DNA of 25,538 nt from a virus. Positions 3,263-19,565 of the stretch are shown here, one piece after another (position 1 is the first letter of the stretch; every line of letters starts with the position of its first letter). The notes beneath the pieces were generated by a model. The model saw only the letters and a list, made by a program, of their open reading frames with translations, was not told the origin of the DNA and did no database searches. The DNA is taken from positions 1-25,538 of IMG/VR virus record IMGVR_UViG_3300036850_000075; one strand, written 5' to 3'. The position numbers and the translations under genes are program-made.

Positions 3263-3721
3263 TCAGTTACTGCGAAGCTGGGCTGCGAAGGACGGGGTCC
3301 GTCGCCGCGTGTCACCGCTCGCTGGCGGCTTATTCCGGTTTCGGACTCGCTGTGCCTTCAGCGTCTGCTTCTTGGGGGCTGGCCTTAGGATCAACGTCTC
3401 GCCGGCGACATTCATCGTTCGGTCTTGTCGCTTCGCAATACCGTTGACCAGGAATCGCAGCAGCTTCTTGCGATTCTTGGGCACATTCTGACCGGGCGGG
3501 ACGATAATTCCGACCGAGGCCGTCACATCGGCCCACTCGGCATCCAGTGTGCGCTTCAGGCACCGCACGCCCGAGCAGTTATTCGGATCACCAATAACGG
3601 CCCCCTTCATATCGGCCAGCGTGATCGTTGCTTGCAGCTTTCCGAATGACTGGGGAGCATCGACAACCCGCTTCGGGTCGTAGCCCTGTGCCCGGGCCCG
3701 TGCTATCCATGTTGAGCCCAC
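3263..3721 (-). CDS. Hypothetical basic phage protein
   Basis: A 152-residue protein starting at GTG 3719-3721, one base overlapping the TAG of the upstream gene, with AAGGGGG upstream. The first 70 residues include TITLADMKGAVIGDPNNCSG, which resembles a small domain seen in phage proteins where a beta strand leads into a G-x-P/D-P-x-x-C segment. The C-terminal third is strongly basic (KKQTLKAQRVRNRNK) and probably disordered, which fits nucleic-acid binding. No catalytic motif is visible. Confidence 0.6.
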   Translation of the reverse strand: MGSTWIARARAQGYDPKRVVDAPQSFGKLQATITLADMKGAVIGDPNNCSGVRCLKRTLDAEWADVTASVGIIVPPGQNVPKNRKKLLRFLVNGIAKRQDRTMNVAGETLILRPAPKKQTLKAQRVRNRNKPPASGDTRRRTPSFAAQLRSN

Positions 3722-4086
3722 TATTCACCCCCTTCCTCGTGGAATTCAGGACAGTGGGAACACTGCCCGTGGTGCTCCGAGCGCACGGTATCCGTGCGCT
3801 CTCGTTGATTCCACGGAGCCGTTACGCCCCGAACGTCAATGACCCAACCCTGGAAGGTTGTCTCGGCGATTCCGAAGTGCCTGGCGAAGGAGCGCGCAGT
3901 GACTTCTGTTTGCCGGCCACCAGGCGAAAGAATTGGTGACCCATCCTCATCGAGGAGCGGCGACCCCTCGTATTTCAGGAACAGACCAACGAAACCAGCT
4001 CGGAATGTTTCGGCCTTCTTATCCAGTGCGCTCCACTTGACCGGGCGAATGCGCCGTAGTTCTACGATTTCGGCTGTGTCACTCAC
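3721..4086 (-). CDS. HTH-like phage protein with cysteine/histidine tail
   Basis: A 121-residue protein from GTG 4084-4086, which forms a GTGA junction with the stop of the upstream gene; the longer ATG start at 4116 would overlap 34 bases. Residues about 65-85 (ARSFARHFGIAETTFQGWV) have the classic layout of a helix-turn-helix, with the turn at FGIAE and a recognition helix after it. The C-terminus has CSHCPEFHEE, a possible metal site. It is probably a small DNA-binding protein, either regulatory or replication linked. Confidence 0.65.
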   Translation of the reverse strand: MSDTAEIVELRRIRPVKWSALDKKAETFRAGFVGLFLKYEGSPLLDEDGSPILSPGGRQTEVTARSFARHFGIAETTFQGWVIDVRGVTAPWNQRERTDTVRSEHHGQCSHCPEFHEEGGE

Positions 4087-4301
4087 TCCTGCACCGCCTC
4101 CTCCAACTCGTGCCACTCATCGAGGGCTCGCAGCGGGTCATCTTCGCTCCGCTCGATTACCTCGAAGACTTCCTTGGCCGATATCGCCACCGCTAGCCAT
4201 GTGTCCTCATCAACTGTCGGTACGAATTGCTTGAACCGGCGGGCTACGGCACAGCCGACAAGTAGGGCTGCAAGGTCACCAGGGTCTTCTTCGTCGGTCA
4301 T
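4083..4301 (-). CDS. Small acidic hypothetical protein
   Basis: A 72-residue protein with AAGGAAAG upstream of its ATG. It is acidic at both ends (MTDEEDPGD and ELEEAVQE) with a hydrophobic helix (LAALLVGCAVARRF) near the N-terminus, too short and interrupted to be a sure membrane segment. Its start overlaps the stop of the membrane-protein gene upstream as ATGA. Function is unknown. Confidence 0.6.
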   Translation of the reverse strand: MTDEEDPGDLAALLVGCAVARRFKQFVPTVDEDTWLAVAISAKEVFEVIERSEDDPLRALDEWHELEEAVQE

Positions 4302-6579: not shown

Positions 6580-6608
6580 ATCCTAGCCCCCCCAGGGATG
6601 CATGTCAA
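6580..6608 (-). promoter_or_regulatory. Sigma70-type promoter for the left operon
   Basis: Minus strand reads TTGACA (6608-6603), a 17-base spacer and TAGGAT (6585-6580). The -35 matches the consensus fully, the spacing is ideal and the -10 matches four of six. Transcription would start near 6573, giving a leader of roughly 138 bases that contains the 14-bp stem. Confidence 0.65.
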
Positions 6609-6703
6609 GGATGCAAGGCATCGACGCTCTCCGCGTCCCTGAAGATAGGCCGTTTGGGGGACTACCTATCCATCCCCGGCCTGTCAAGATTGCTGTGTCA
6701 AGG
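6603..6703 (+). promoter_or_regulatory. Three TGTCAAG repeats, candidate operators
   Basis: TGTCAAG occurs at 6603, 6682 and 6696 in the same orientation; the copies at 6603 and 6696 extend to TGTCAAGG. On the minus strand each is a TTGACA, and the one at 6603-6608 is the -35 box of the left promoter. They could be repressor sites for the divergent genes or spare -35 elements. No clear plus-strand promoter for the HTH-protease gene was found. Confidence 0.4.
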
Positions 6704-6741
6704 ACGATGTATCAGGCGAGGCAGAGAAGGGAGCGAAGGCC

Positions 6742-7686
6742 ATGACCGAGGAGCAGCGCGTCGAGGAGCTAGTTAGTCTCCTTCTCGTTGAGAAGAGGGG
6801 CTGGGCCGAGCGCCTACCCCTCATCCGCGAGGAGATGGGTCGGCTGGAGATCACCCCATTTGAGCTGACCGTCTGGCTCCGGGAACGCGGTATCCGTTCA
6901 GCTCGAGGCCCAATCTCAGATGCGACGGTTCGGCGCTGGCTCCGGGGGCACTATGTCCCGGATGCTGACGCTCAAGACGCCATCATAGATATGCTGGTGG
7001 AGGCCAGTTTGGGCAACTGGTCTAAGGCCAGGTACCTCAGTTGGACCCGACTGGCCGAGGGCGTTCGCCCTTTCCTCCACTTCCCCCCGGTACTCAAAAG
7101 ACTCGGGCTGGTGGCTGCATCTGTGGCGGTAGCCCTAAGCCTGATGACTAATACGGCATCAGCCACCATCACCGATTACGGCCCTGGCGGCACGGCCGAT
7201 GCCGCCACCACCCCGACCACCTACACCATGCCCATTCCGGTCATCGACACCCTGGCTCGAACCCTGACCCCGGAGCACCGGAGGATCTGGCGGCAGGCCA
7301 GGGACGCCGCTCTGGCCAACTGGAGCAGTGGGTGCGTGTCCTTCACGGTCACCACCGGGACGAGCACCTGGGATGACTCCATAGGCGACCTGGGCTACTC
7401 CCGCTTGCTCACCTCCGGAGCCATCACCATCTTCCGCAACCAGTCCTCCTCACCGCAGATGCTCGGCTACTGGGACGCATCCTCCGGTGGGGCCTTCGCC
7501 GTCTACGCCCCCTGGGGGCCATGGTGGAAAGACTACTACCGCAGCCAAATGGTTGGGGACATCGGGCATGAGCTTGGGCACGCCTTGGGCTTCGGCCACG
7601 GCGGCAACGGCATCATGATGGGGGATACCGATAGGCCCAACGCCACCGACCTCGCCCTACTCCGCTCGTACTACTGCGACCCCTGA
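6742..7686 (+). CDS. HTH-like / membrane-segment / metzincin zinc protease fusion
   Basis: A 314-residue protein with GGAG eight bases before its ATG. Residues 35-85 look like a DNA-binding helix-turn-helix (FELTVWLRERG ... ISDATVRRWLRGHYVP). Residues 117-140 are one hydrophobic segment after KR (GLVAASVAVALSLM), ending TASA, so it could be a membrane anchor or an internal signal peptide. From 170 on is a secreted protease-like domain with HELGHALGFGH at 276-286, the HExxHxxGxxH zinc site of metzincins, and a downstream MM at 292-293 as Met-turn. It resembles matrixin-like domains. The N-terminus would stay in the cytoplasm and the protease outside. It could be a membrane-bound regulator or a lysogenic-conversion factor. 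It lies divergent to the left operon and just before the integrase. Confidence 0.75.
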   Translation: MTEEQRVEELVSLLLVEKRGWAERLPLIREEMGRLEITPFELTVWLRERGIRSARGPISDATVRRWLRGHYVPDADAQDAIIDMLVEASLGNWSKARYLSWTRLAEGVRPFLHFPPVLKRLGLVAASVAVALSLMTNTASATITDYGPGGTADAATTPTTYTMPIPVIDTLARTLTPEHRRIWRQARDAALANWSSGCVSFTVTTGTSTWDDSIGDLGYSRLLTSGAITIFRNQSSSPQMLGYWDASSGGAFAVYAPWGPWWKDYYRSQMVGDIGHELGHALGFGHGGNGIMMGDTDRPNATDLALLRSYYCDP

Positions 7687-7749: not shown

Positions 7750-8640
7750 GTGAACCGTGAGGATGCCTTGCACCTAGCCCGCTGGTCCGAGTTCCTGGTA
7801 GCCACCGGCCGCTCGACCAATACCATCCGCCAATACCGCTACGCCATCCTCCGCCTAGTGGCCGAGTCCAACGTAGCCATCATGGATATCACCGAGGAGC
7901 ATGTGGTGACCTTCCTGGCCAGCCTGGGCAAGCGGGCCCACAGCCGGCAGCTCTACATCCGGGCCTTCAACTCCTTCTATGAGTGGGCTGTCCAGCGTGA
8001 ATACATCGCCAAGAATCCGGCAGCGAACATCCGCCCAAAAGCACCGATTGACCCGCCACCCGACGCCTACAGCCCGGAGGAGATAGCTTTCCTGGTCCGG
8101 GCTGCGGGCGCTCGAAACCCCCGCTATGGCCACGCCATCCTGGCCTGCTACGCCCTGGGACTGAGAAGGTCGGAGCTCTGCGGTATCACCCAGGAGGACA
8201 TCGACTGGCAGGGGCGGCGGGTGTACATCCGGTGCGCCAAGGGAGACCGGCCCCGATGGGTGGAGATGAACGCTACTGCAATTGAGGCTTTGGGGGCCTT
8301 ACGTTCAATTCGGTCCCGAGAATTGAGGCCTAGCAATCCCTCAAATGCTAGGGATTTGGATGGTTATTCCCTGGTCGGCTTCCACCCCCAGTGGTTCACC
8401 ATGATTGTCCAGCGAGCTGCGGCGGATGCAGGCCTACCCAGGAACCGGCGGCGGGCCCATATGCTCCGTGCCAGCTTCGTCACCGGGCTCCTGGATCAGG
8501 GGGTGCCAGTCTCCGTGGCCTCGAGGCTGGTTGGCCATGCCAACTTGGCGACGACGCACAGGTACGCCTCGGTACGGCCAGAGGACAAGCGGCGGGCGGT
8601 GGATGCACTTCCTACGGTCGCCATACTCGCGGGGGCTTGA
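7750..8640 (+). CDS. int: Tyrosine recombinase (phage integrase)
   Basis: A 296-residue integrase from GTG 7750, preferred over TTG 7723 because GGGGG lies eight bases upstream. Residues 1-95 form the SAM-like core-binding domain (helical, with TNTIRQYRYAILRL). The catalytic domain has R139 in GLRRSEL, K164 in CAKGDRPR, H237 and R240 in HMLR, H263 in VGHANL and nucleophile Y272 in THRYA, so all active residues are present. It would integrate and, perhaps with a directionality factor, excise the phage. There is no arm-binding N-terminal domain, so it is of the simple XerC/D-like type. Its 3' end overlaps the opposing exonuclease gene by 29 bases. Confidence 0.92.
   Translation: MNREDALHLARWSEFLVATGRSTNTIRQYRYAILRLVAESNVAIMDITEEHVVTFLASLGKRAHSRQLYIRAFNSFYEWAVQREYIAKNPAANIRPKAPIDPPPDAYSPEEIAFLVRAAGARNPRYGHAILACYALGLRRSELCGITQEDIDWQGRRVYIRCAKGDRPRWVEMNATAIEALGALRSIRSRELRPSNPSNARDLDGYSLVGFHPQWFTMIVQRAAADAGLPRNRRRAHMLRASFVTGLLDQGVPVSVASRLVGHANLATTHRYASVRPEDKRRAVDALPTVAILAGA
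8305..8356 (+). repeat. Two adjacent 7-bp inverted repeats with 8-base spacers inside int
   Basis: TCAATTC-8-GAATTGA (8305-8326) and AATCCCT-8-AGGGATT (8335-8356) lie eight bases apart within the integrase coding region, between the catalytic lysine and the HxxR motif. The stretch is visibly more AT-rich than the rest of the gene. Both share the arm and spacer geometry of tyrosine-recombinase core sites, although chance is possible. Confidence 0.4.
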
Positions 8641-9775: not shown

Positions 9776-9973
9776 ATGGCAGTGGATTTCACGAAACATG
9801 ATGCCCGGTGGCGGAAGGATATCGCCCTGGGGTTTGGCGAGAAGATCTCTAAGACTCGGCCTTGGTCATGGGAATGTATTGTCTGCAAGGCACATGGCCC
9901 ACACTTTGCCTCATCGGTAGCTGCCATCGCGTCGGCGACACAGCACAACGGCGGGCAATACAACTCAGGCTAA
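9776..9973 (+). CDS. Lone plus-strand small zinc-finger-like protein
   Basis: A 65-residue protein whose ATG has GAGGAGG seven bases before it, one of the best SDs in the window. Residues 32-58 read WECIVCKAHGPHFASSVAAIASATQHN; CxxC plus spaced histidines suggests one zinc site. It is encoded against the direction of all neighbours and ends in a four-base tail-to-tail overlap with the gene at 9970-10101. Its own control region has the 16-bp palindrome. A regulator or moron role is possible. Confidence 0.7.
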   Translation: MAVDFTKHDARWRKDIALGFGEKISKTRPWSWECIVCKAHGPHFASSVAAIASATQHNGGQYNSG

Positions 9974-10360: not shown

Positions 10361-10579
10361 CTAGTGTCCGTGTACGAATAGGAAATGGACGATGAGCCAG
10401 ACAAGGAACCCTGCGATCAGGAACCACATCGGGTTAGTCCAGTTGCCGGCGATCTTGCGGACGTACCAGGTGAACGGCTGCGTCTCCTCCGACTTATCGG
10501 CGAGGGAGATGACCTCAAAGATGATGAATTCCAGAACGATGACCAGCCAGCCGATAGCCCAGAGATTGTGCAGCTTCAT
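10361..10579 (-). CDS. Two-helix membrane protein, holin-like candidate
   Basis: A 72-residue protein with two membrane helices, at residues 7-26 (AIGWLVIVLEFIIFEVIS) and 51-70 (MWFLIAGFLVWLIVHFLFV), joined by a polar loop with an aromatic FTWYVRKIAGNW. Many phages carry a protein of this shape beside lysis genes. It follows the papain-like peptidase with an ATGA overlap. A holin role is inferred from size, topology and position only. Confidence 0.6.
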   Translation of the reverse strand: MKLHNLWAIGWLVIVLEFIIFEVISLADKSEETQPFTWYVRKIAGNWTNPMWFLIAGFLVWLIVHFLFVHGH

Positions 10580-11274
10580 GCGGCCCTCGGCAGCTCATGG
10601 ATGAGCACTGCATCGCCCCATCCCGTAAAGGCGAGCTCCTCGAGGTGGGCGAGTTCGATGCGGGCCTTACCGTTGTCTGCCCAATCAGGGCCCCAGGAAT
10701 TCAGGATGTCGTAGTAGGGCTTGCTTCCATCTGCTGGGGCTAGATCGATGCCGACCACCTCGTACTCATGACCCCCAGCCCTACCGGACTCGGGGCGATA
10801 GCGGATGTACTTGTGGCCGAGGCCATCGGGCGGGGTGTCGAACATTGAGACATACCAAGTGCTGCCGACACAGACGGAGCCTCGCTCCAACACCATGTAG
10901 CGAAGTGCCTCCGGGCTCGTCGCCCATTCGTAGCGGTCGATAGCCCCCCGATTCATCAAGGCAACACACGCGCTAAGGGCCGATGTCCCACTCTGCATGG
11001 CGTAGTCCGGTGCCCCGTAGAAGATGGCTGAGGCCTCTAGGTAAAGCTTCTGGGCGTCGTCCTCCGTTATGCCGTCTATCTGGAGGGGGCCGTTGGCCCT
11101 GCGATGCATGAAGGCATTGCCGACACAGGTTCCGTAGGCCCCCTGGTTCAGCCGCGTCTTGGCCGGGTAGTGGCGGTAGGTCCGAGTCGTTTCATAGGCC
11201 GTGGCGGGATACATCGCCATGGCCCGAGGCGTCTCGGGGTCTAATACCCTACCCAGGGGATACCAAGTGGTCAT
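10576..11274 (-). CDS. Papain-like (C1) cysteine peptidase
   Basis: A 232-residue protein from ATG 11272-11274, with a TAGGA SD; the frame is open upstream, but that part overlaps the small membrane gene. It has the papain catalytic set: Q44 and C50 in NQGAYGTCVGNAF, H169 in GGHEYEVVGID and N192 in ILNSWG. There is no signal peptide or propeptide. It lies between two small membrane proteins in the lysis block, so it may cleave peptide cross-links in the cell wall or act on a host protein. A papain-type enzyme here is unusual compared with amidases or M15 and M23 peptidases. Confidence 0.8.
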   Translation of the reverse strand: MTTWYPLGRVLDPETPRAMAMYPATAYETTRTYRHYPAKTRLNQGAYGTCVGNAFMHRRANGPLQIDGITEDDAQKLYLEASAIFYGAPDYAMQSGTSALSACVALMNRGAIDRYEWATSPEALRYMVLERGSVCVGSTWYVSMFDTPPDGLGHKYIRYRPESGRAGGHEYEVVGIDLAPADGSKPYYDILNSWGPDWADNGKARIELAHLEELAFTGWGDAVLIHELPRAA

Positions 11275-12899: not shown

Positions 12900-14111
12900 C
12901 TACGCTAGAATTGCCGTTGAATCCAGCTGGCCATATGTCGAGCTATCCAGGATCCCCGCCACAATCAGGCTGCTAGGTGACACTGCAAGGGTTACCGTCC
13001 ATGAACCGTCACGGCCGATGTCGTGAGAGATGCCCTCGATAGATGAGATCTGGGATGTCGCTGTGCGGGATTCGATGACCTTCACGATGTCGTTGATATC
13101 CCGGACAAGCACGCGATCCCAGAGACCATGCTGCATGGCGTTATCTATCAGGCTCTCAAGCCGCAGGACGGGCTGGGCGTAGCGCCGCACCTGTTCCGTG
13201 GCCCTAGCTAGGACATCCGAATCATTCACAAGCTGGATGTCCGTCTCCGAACTGGAGCGGATGCCGTATTGGGTTTGGGAGGTCGCGTCTGTCGCTACTT
13301 GCTCGGTGCCCCCGGTCCGGGTGAGGTGAACGTCGTTCAAGATCAGGCTGTCGCTGAAGTCTGGCGCGATGTCTCGGTAGCTCATACCCGTGCCGTTGTC
13401 GGCCCACGTGCGTGTAGAGACATCCGGATTCGTCTCTATGCCTTGCCGGAAGACGGCCTTACCATCCTTGCCGATGAAGAAACGGCCGCCCTCGGCATGA
13501 GCTATCTGCTGGATGTGCTCAAGGGCTGAGACATTCGCCAGTGTGATGGCCGGCACGGTGGAGGTGCCAACGTCGATATCCCGGTCGGCGGTAGGCCAGT
13601 TGATTGCGTCGAGGATTGCCCCCACCCTCGCCCCGCTACCCTGCTGGATGAATGCCCCAGAGACATTCGCCTGGGAGAGCATCTTCATGCCATCGACCAG
13701 CGCGACCCGGGTTTCCATGTCCTTGTCGCCGGGAAAGGTGATTGGCCAGCTCTCCACGAACCCGATGAAAACTGGGTACTCCACCGCTGACCACGTCCCG
13801 GTGATCTTGATGCGCCGCATCGGCAGGACGTTGGGGTAATACGGAGAGCTGATATTGAATGGCGTGAACCGCCCGTCCAGGTTGTCTAGGGTGATAGATG
13901 CCGTGCCGGCCTCAACTCTCTCAAGCTCACGCTGAGCACCCCGGCTTGTTGATGCTTCCCTCACATATGCCGTGATGTCTTGGGGGAAGGTTGGTGCGAG
14001 TGGGCCGAGAACGGCCGTGTCTAGTTGGGCCGTCGCAACATCATCCAGTATCGCCCCGCCGCTGATATAGCCGCCCAGATCGAGTTTGACGGACAGCGTG
14101 GGAGTGCTCAT
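12900..14111 (-). CDS. Minor tail protein
   Basis: A 403-residue tail protein. Residues 40-115 contain ITAYVREASTSRGAQRELER, GTASITLDNLDGRFTP and SSPYYPNVLPMRRI, a signature of siphophage minor tail proteins encoded just after the tape measure. Such proteins form the tail tip or its hub. The start makes an ATGA overlap with the tape measure gene. The C-terminus ILDSSTYGQLDSTAILA repeats the wording of LDDVATAQLDTAVLG near the N-terminus. Confidence 0.85.
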   Translation of the reverse strand: MSTPTLSVKLDLGGYISGGAILDDVATAQLDTAVLGPLAPTFPQDITAYVREASTSRGAQRELERVEAGTASITLDNLDGRFTPFNISSPYYPNVLPMRRIKITGTWSAVEYPVFIGFVESWPITFPGDKDMETRVALVDGMKMLSQANVSGAFIQQGSGARVGAILDAINWPTADRDIDVGTSTVPAITLANVSALEHIQQIAHAEGGRFFIGKDGKAVFRQGIETNPDVSTRTWADNGTGMSYRDIAPDFSDSLILNDVHLTRTGGTEQVATDATSQTQYGIRSSSETDIQLVNDSDVLARATEQVRRYAQPVLRLESLIDNAMQHGLWDRVLVRDINDIVKVIESRTATSQISSIEGISHDIGRDGSWTVTLAVSPSSLIVAGILDSSTYGQLDSTAILA

Positions 14112-18869: not shown

Positions 18870-19565
18870 TTAGCTTCCAAGACTAGTCACGAGTGAGTCG
18901 GCATCGAAGGCTGAGGTGCTCGAATCTCCATTCATCGAGAGCACTGCTGAGTCTCCTTCGCTGAGAAAGATTGGCGGAACACCCGAAGCGGTTACTTCCG
19001 AACCCGTCCAAGTAATCTGGCCCGGAGTGGTAATCAGCGTGATGAACTTCAGCGGGAGCGATTGCCCGGTGAGGGTGATAGCACCAGCGGTGGGAACGGC
19101 CGAGATCTTCAGACCAATGACTTGCCCGGTCCAAGTGATCGCACCGGGCACGGTAACGGAGATAACGGTCCCAGAGAGGAGCACGATATCCGCCGCGCCC
19201 TGCCACAGGATTGCGCCAGGAGCTACCCCGATAGAAGTCTTGAGTCCTAGCGCCTGACCCGTCCAGGTGATGGCTCCCGCCGTTGGGGAGATCGATGTGG
19301 TCAGGCCGATTGTTTGGCCACTCCAGGTGATTGCCCCAGCGGTTGGGGTCGCCGTGTTGGTGAGTCCGACCGTCTGACCGGTCCAAGTTATCGCCCCGGC
19401 TGTTACTGCAATGCTGGTCTTCAGACCAAGCGCTTGTCCGGTCCAGGTGATTTGGCCGGCGGTGTCAACGTTGATGATGACATTGCCGGTGGCGGCACCA
19501 CGGAATGTATCGTTCGTTCGGAGGGTTGATCCGCCACCACTCTTGCGGAGTACGAAGTTAGCCAT
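18870..19565 (-). CDS. 20-residue tandem-repeat structural protein
   Basis: A 231-residue protein dominated by repeats with consensus AGAITWTGQxxGLxTSxxxT. About eight units run from residue 36 to 196, four of them almost identical, with one 24-residue degenerate unit in the middle. Each unit fits a beta hairpin or beta-prism rung. The ends are non-repeated (MANFVLRKSGGG and ALSMNGDSSTSAFDAD). It is probably exposed on the virion. Copy number may change by recombination between the DNA repeats. Confidence 0.7.
   Translation of the reverse strand: MANFVLRKSGGGSTLRTNDTFRGAATGNVIINVDTAGQITWTGQALGLKTSIAVTAGAITWTGQTVGLTNTATPTAGAITWSGQTIGLTTSISPTAGAITWTGQALGLKTSIGVAPGAILWQGAADIVLLSGTVISVTVPGAITWTGQVIGLKISAVPTAGAITLTGQSLPLKFITLITTPGQITWTGSEVTASGVPPIFLSEGDSAVLSMNGDSSTSAFDADSLVTSLGS
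18980..19460 (-). repeat. 60-bp tandem coding repeats
   Basis: Blocks of about 60 bp, beginning around GTCCAGGTGAT on the plus strand, repeat about eight times with variable identity. Each encodes one 20-residue unit. Similarity is highest among the four units nearest the protein's N-terminus. Confidence 0.75.

Follow-up and report, generated by a model that had tools for sequence, protein, structure and literature searches.

In a 25.5-kb virus record of IMG/VR (IMGVR_UViG_3300036850_000075), called the window here, a single polypeptide joins an N-terminal domain modelled as CI-like, a hydrophobic segment and a metzincin-type zinc protease domain. It is conserved as one polypeptide in two phages, its gene lying just ahead of the integrase gene and in the same direction. 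The best explanation, put forward tentatively, is a two-part protein of the lysogeny module consisting of a CI-like regulator and an exported, probably released metzincin that acts on the host surface. If true, the lysogeny decision would be linked to the cell surface by a single gene, through its repressor-like domain and exported protease. No CI-like domain fused to an exported metzincin was found in the libraries, collections and literature searched, the sequence searches being limited by the seeds used. Phage immunity regulators are generally soluble.

The window is apparently a tailed-phage fragment, an integrase, a tape measure and other tail proteins being recognised in it. The nearest named relatives of its tape measure, integrase and papain-like peptidase include many Gordonia, Microbacterium, Arthrobacter, Streptomyces and Mycobacterium phages and the host is therefore likely actinobacterial. 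The fusion gene is co-directional with the integrase gene just downstream and divergent from the leftward genes on its other side. The following features were identified in the window, partly by comparison with two related contigs, L002 (from IMG/VR) and L003:

6603..6609, + strand: first TGTCAAG copy, minus-strand -35 box (TTGACA) of a leftward promoter with its -10 box TAGGAT at 6585-6580
6682..6709, + strand: two head-to-tail 14-bp repeats, TGTCAAGATTGCTG / TGTCAAGGACGATG, candidate operator and/or leftward -35 boxes
6742..7056, + strand: predicted N-terminal cytoplasmic domain, residues 1-105, lambda-repressor-like helix-turn-helix (HTH) fold (AF2 model, Foldseek, dN/dS)
7018..7041, + strand: three-way identical block of 24 nt (TGGTCTAAGGCCAGGTACCTCAGT; window, L002 and L003) where the N-domain ends, possible attP core
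7093..7149, + strand: single hydrophobic membrane segment or signal sequence, residues 118-136 (hydropathy maximum of 2.33 over 15 residues)
7156..7164, + strand: Ala-Ser-Ala (139-141), signal peptidase I-like cleavage site (alignment with L002)
7168..7683, + strand: predicted extracytoplasmic metzincin domain, residues 143-314 (motif read directly, weak sub-threshold matches)
7750..8640, + strand: tyrosine integrase (Pfam Phage_integrase, 3.9e-21; 84% identity to L002)

Reading frame, relatives and selection

The frame at 6742-7686 (+) is open throughout, starts with ATG and encodes 314 amino acids, laid out as an N-terminal domain (about 1-105), a hydrophobic segment (about 118-136) and the metzincin domain. 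This is the continuous frame described by an earlier note on this DNA, and L002 carries the whole fusion. The long start at ATG 6742 is favored because a purine stretch resembling a ribosome-binding site and the N-terminal sequence MT[E/Q]EQ are conserved in both phages. A protease-only product from an internal start was rejected on the same grounds, the candidates M84, V86 and L90 being without a clear ribosome-binding site. The integrase likely starts at GTG 7750 (MNREDALHL..., in agreement with the ATG of L002) and not at TTG 7723, which places it 63 nt from the fusion gene, compared with 61 nt in L002.

The full-length homologue in L002 (10001-10870, same strand, 289 amino acids) adjoins an 84%-identical integrase and shares 64% identity with the window protein over 288 aligned codons, or 59% when gaps are counted. 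It is the one complete relative of the fusion known. The earlier note had tied its regulator idea to relatives lying beside phage control regions, and this sole full relative does occupy the same control-region and integrase position. Generic peptide seeds retrieved no relative, seeds forced onto the protease motif retrieved L002, and seeds from the two-sequence alignment retrieved L003. Searches of the collections with the integrase and neighboring genes again returned L002 and L003 as the close contigs, such phages being rare there. Among sequenced phages, plasmids and bacterial genomes, neither tblastn nor peptide seeds, which detect near relatives only, found a relative. The rarity of the fusion in the collections might suggest that two frames were joined by a sequencing or assembly error, an explanation we consider practically dismissed by L002, an independent contig with the same uninterrupted frame at 59% identity and with the same neighbor.

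Comparison of the window with L002 gave dN/dS values of 0.21/0.84 for residues 1-112, 0.71/0.92 (about 0.8) for residues 113-142, which comprise the linker and membrane segment, and 0.27/0.60 for residues 143-314, the protease domain. These values indicate purifying selection on both globular domains and not on the linker and membrane segment. The contig end of L003 falls within the N-domain, from where its sequence tracks that of L002 over 168 nt, up to a point shortly ahead of the membrane segment, and soon afterwards the frame is closed by a stop. Beyond it come a brief stretch matching the intergenic region and a shortened integrase (L003:279-818, +) that lacks about 100 codons near its N-terminus in frame, MNRE being joined to PEEIASLV. 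This integrase is probably inactive. The membrane segment and protease were thus lost together with the N-terminal part of the integrase, and as parts of both genes are deleted, the fusion gene appears to decay with, and to be tied to, the lysogeny module. The retained N-domain codons of L003 show a dN/dS of 0.08/0.31 against L002. L003 shows that an N-domain lacking membrane segment and protease can occur, at least in relic form.

The N-terminal domain and the control region

An AF2 model of the N-domain based on three sequences reached a pLDDT of 82.4 and a pTM of 0.76, with helices at residues 3-17, 21-35, 39-48, 60-68, 75-89 and 95-106. The putative recognition helix is 60-68 (SDATVRRWLRG), of which R65, W66 and R68 are invariant in the three phages. 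Foldseek with the full-length model was swamped by spurious matches from the unmodelled protease half and was repeated on the N-domain alone. The leading matches in the PDB were POU-specific domains, an arbitrium-phage protein (9iaq_B; probability 0.90, rmsd 1.2 Å over 61 columns), TP901-1 CI, P2 C, SinR, DdrO, Rgg2 and ComR, their E-values of 1.3-6 making this a consistent pattern in the list and not a significant match. No HTH family matched the N-domain above the cut-off in Pfam or NCBIfam or significantly in PHROGs, and the L002 protein gave a weak match to an NsdA-family regulator (E 0.005). Based on its best structural matches, the modelled domain would be a lambda-repressor-like (CI-like) helical HTH domain. 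The earlier proposal that residues 1-115 adopt a DNA-binding fold is in keeping with the model, while the Foldseek E-values of at least 1.3 fall short of significance.

The HTH-like domain could alternatively be a protein-interaction module that positions the exported protease without binding DNA. In RodZ, a cytoplasmic HTH acts in this way, and the RodZ layout of HTH, membrane segment and outer domain is matched by the fusion protein. The lack of a Pfam HTH match and the near-zero net charge of the N-domain (17 K/R and 18 D/E) are also consistent with such a role. It is nevertheless unlikely considering that the domain's place in a phage control region is conserved, that its structural neighbors are DNA-binding repressors and that residues of the putative recognition helix are invariant. 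Far less probable still is that the N-domain is an excisionase (directionality factor) acting on direct repeats beside the integrase gene. A sub-threshold Pfam match to Exc (PF07825, E 0.062) covers TVRRWLRG and head-to-tail repeats do lie near int, but the model is mostly helical and lambda-repressor-like instead of a small winged helix, no Xis is among the matches listed by Foldseek, and export through the membrane would be hard to explain for an excisionase.

Four copies of TGTCAAG are present on the + strand of the window, three of them at 6603, 6682 and 6696. The leftward promoter whose -35 box lies at 6608 agrees with the consensus at 10 of 12 positions, and 32 nt separate the pair of 14-bp repeats from the ATG. 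When such a stretch is shuffled, some 7-mer occurs three times in about 5% of cases, and the repeats gain credibility from positions common to both phages, L002 having TGTCAAGATAGGCA and a degenerate CACCAAGAACGCC at 9946/9960 as well as TGTCAAGG at 9879. A regulator bound at these repeats would block leftward transcription, and the fusion protein may be that regulator. It should be noted that repressors of this class more usually have palindromic sites than direct repeats, which counts against a repressor reading. In line with the earlier statement that the window has no other obvious repressor, the only candidate among the proteins scanned was a small leftward one (3721-4116) with a weak Pfam HTH score. 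The product of the first leftward gene of L002 (9126-9884, -; its true start is probably close to 9700) is HTH-like (HTH_12 at E 8e-4, narrowly below the cut-off), was not seen in the window and could be a Cro-like partner of the switch. At the left end of the window, a ParB N-terminal-like protein (117-731, -; Pfam E 4e-5, just under the cut-off) is conserved in L002.

Membrane segment, cleavage site and protease domain

Hydropathy is highest in LGLVAASVAVALSLM (121-135), after which comes NTASA/T, and K119 and R120 stand at the start of the hydrophobic segment. By hydropathy alone, the topology is that of one hydrophobic segment with preceding K/R, and the protein may be cleaved after it. 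The L002 segment is poorly conserved in sequence (28% identity) and has kept its character; the site matching Ala-Ser-Ala is PNPAWA/L. N137, A139 and A141 are identical in the two phages although the link drifts. As the hydrophobic stretch diverges while its Ala-X-Ala end is kept, like in a cleaved signal sequence, release of the protease by signal peptidase I after Ala-X-Ala appears more likely than transmembrane signaling, an argument that rests on two sequences and is an indication, not proof. To our knowledge, cytoplasmic domains of 115 residues ahead of a cleaved signal sequence are rare, which counts against the two-part reading.

The earlier note had proposed a lysogeny regulator with a sensing protease, that is, a one-component sensor in which the protein stays intact and extracellular protease events alter the DNA-binding state of the HTH and hence the lysis-lysogeny choice. 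The regulator part of this proposal gains support from the model and the position. The sensor part, to which the topology of membrane-tethered one-component regulators and the location in the control region would be suited, gains no such support and has against it the poorly conserved linker and membrane segment and the cleavage motif retained between the halves. Moreover, an enzyme would be an odd ligand sensor and L003 retains an N-domain without the remainder. Such a sensor is accordingly less likely than previously thought, and we rate it as improbable.

The zinc motif HELGHALGFGH (HExxHxxGxxH) at 276-286 corresponds to HEVGHALGFGH in L002. It is followed by the Met-turn GIMM at 290-293 (M292/M293), the stretch H286-GGNGIMM being identical and equally spaced in both proteins. 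A chance HExxH was discarded given that the full motif and Met-turn are conserved in L002. Sub-threshold family matches were to Metallopep, M54 and M10, with Matrixin M10 (PF00413) reaching 14.0 and 11.5 bits compared with a cut-off of 24. At the sequence level, the strongest structural echoes were archaemetzincin and stromelysin/collagenase (MMP) around the zinc helix. No ImmA/IrrE-family Pfam match was obtained for the domain, which follows the membrane segment. The protease half did not fold in silico, its model from two sequences having a pLDDT of about 30. By its motif, the domain is classified as a metzincin without assignment to the matrixins. A second, separate metzincin-like protein (AHEFGHILGLDH) is encoded in the tail/lysis region of L002 (15578-16105, -; Matrixin E 1e-4, just under the cut-off) and resembles the protease domain of the fusion in the zinc-helix stretch alone (29% over 48 residues).

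Under the two-part reading, the N-terminal CI-like domain would stay in the cytoplasm and bind the TGTCAAG-repeat region overlapping the leftward -35 boxes, thereby holding down leftward (early/lytic) transcription. The hydrophobic segment would bring the metzincin domain at the C-terminus through the membrane, and signal peptidase I would probably release it there after Ala-X-Ala. The metzincin could then act on host-surface proteins during establishment or maintenance of lysogeny, resulting in exclusion of other phages or a changed envelope, and its dose would be coupled one-to-one with that of the regulator. This reading is favored by the full homologue and synteny in L002, domain-wise selection, the N-domain model, the repeats conserved in position and the decay seen in L003, as well as by a Listeria precedent, Mtz/Tim, for CI-type control of a secreted metzincin (PMC8235301). 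The missing HTH family match, the insignificant Foldseek E-values, the low pLDDT of the protease half and the single complete relative weigh against it.

Known systems and a candidate attP

Zinc metalloproteases are genetically linked to lambda-like-fold repressors in ImmR/ImmA and DdrO/IrrE, as would be the case here. ImmA/IrrE proteases work in the cytoplasm with the repressor as their target, whereas the protease of the fusion is a metzincin predicted to lie outside the membrane. ToxR/CadC-type regulators have, as is predicted for the fusion, a cytoplasmic DNA-binding-like domain, one membrane segment and an outer domain. They combine a winged OmpR-type domain with a non-enzymatic sensor domain. 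The fusion differs in its lambda-repressor-like, not winged-helix, model and in its apparent protease and cleavage site. A phage-derived cI-cro switch of Listeria monocytogenes is nearest in function: it governs a secreted metzincin together with a TIMP-like partner (mtz-tim), altering the cell wall (PMC8235301). Both loci bring together a CI-type XRE regulator and a secreted metzincin, each of these being predicted for the fusion, and the Listeria enzyme, with HExxHxxGxxH and the Met-turn AIMLD, acts at the cell envelope (PMC8235301). In Listeria, regulator and protease are separate genes and the partner is a TIMP-like lipoprotein (PMC8235301), in contrast to the single polypeptide followed by an integrase described here.

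Nearest in layout is the cassette of mycobacteriophage BPs, in which the repressor gene lies just upstream of int, co-directional with it and divergent from the early operon, and contains attP, so that integration strips a C-terminal tail and activates the repressor (PMC4557955). In both cases, an N-terminal part of about 100 residues, regulatory in BPs and presumably here, bears a C-terminal extension, which in BPs is a 33-residue tail with an ssrA-like degradation tag (PMC4557955) and here a membrane segment and protease, attP within the gene being putative. A comparable integration-dependent switch would place attP at the domain border (7018-7041). Prior to integration, the HTH would be membrane-held and weak; integration would split the gene, yielding a soluble active N-domain and leaving the protease lost or under host control. 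Besides the shared gene order and an N-domain near the size of active BPs gp33-103 (PMC4557955), such a switch is suggested by the 24-nt block, which is the longest three-way identical block across the gene and integrase and sits at the border of N-domain and linker, and by codons 78-101, where 15 of 18 comparable codons are identical compared with 61% overall. We still consider both the attP placement and the ensuing switch to be rather unlikely: a codon permutation for synonymous-site conservation of the block was not significant (p 0.12-0.20), the viral collection yielded no attB or prophage junction, and the C-termini SYYCDP (window) and SYYC (L002) are not ssrA-like. The block had no match in phages, plasmids or Rfam. 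A tRNA-type attP was dismissed: there is no tRNA gene, Rfam gave no match, and the single GTTCRA site within the gene does not look like a T-arm on inspection. More generally, a membrane-held repressor-metzincin fusion might become a soluble active repressor through a change of location, either by proteolytic release or by integration at an attP within the gene (the 24-nt block), a possibility to which we assign a small chance and which, if true, would represent a new route to a conditional repressor, via membrane release or gene-splitting integration.

A papain-like cysteine peptidase is encoded beside tail/lysis genes in the window (10576-11259, -) and in L003 (2484-3209, -) and is related to proteins of Gordonia, Streptomyces and Mycobacterium phages; in that part of its genome, L002 has the separate metzincin. 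A short-repeat protein (GAITWTGQxxGL...) adjoins the tail genes of the window (18870-19565, -). One tail protein comprises 403 amino acids in the window (12900-14111, -) and 841 in L002 (16625-19150, -), the latter being longer apparently because a pair of similar domains, each about 200 residues long, has been inserted at separate sites.
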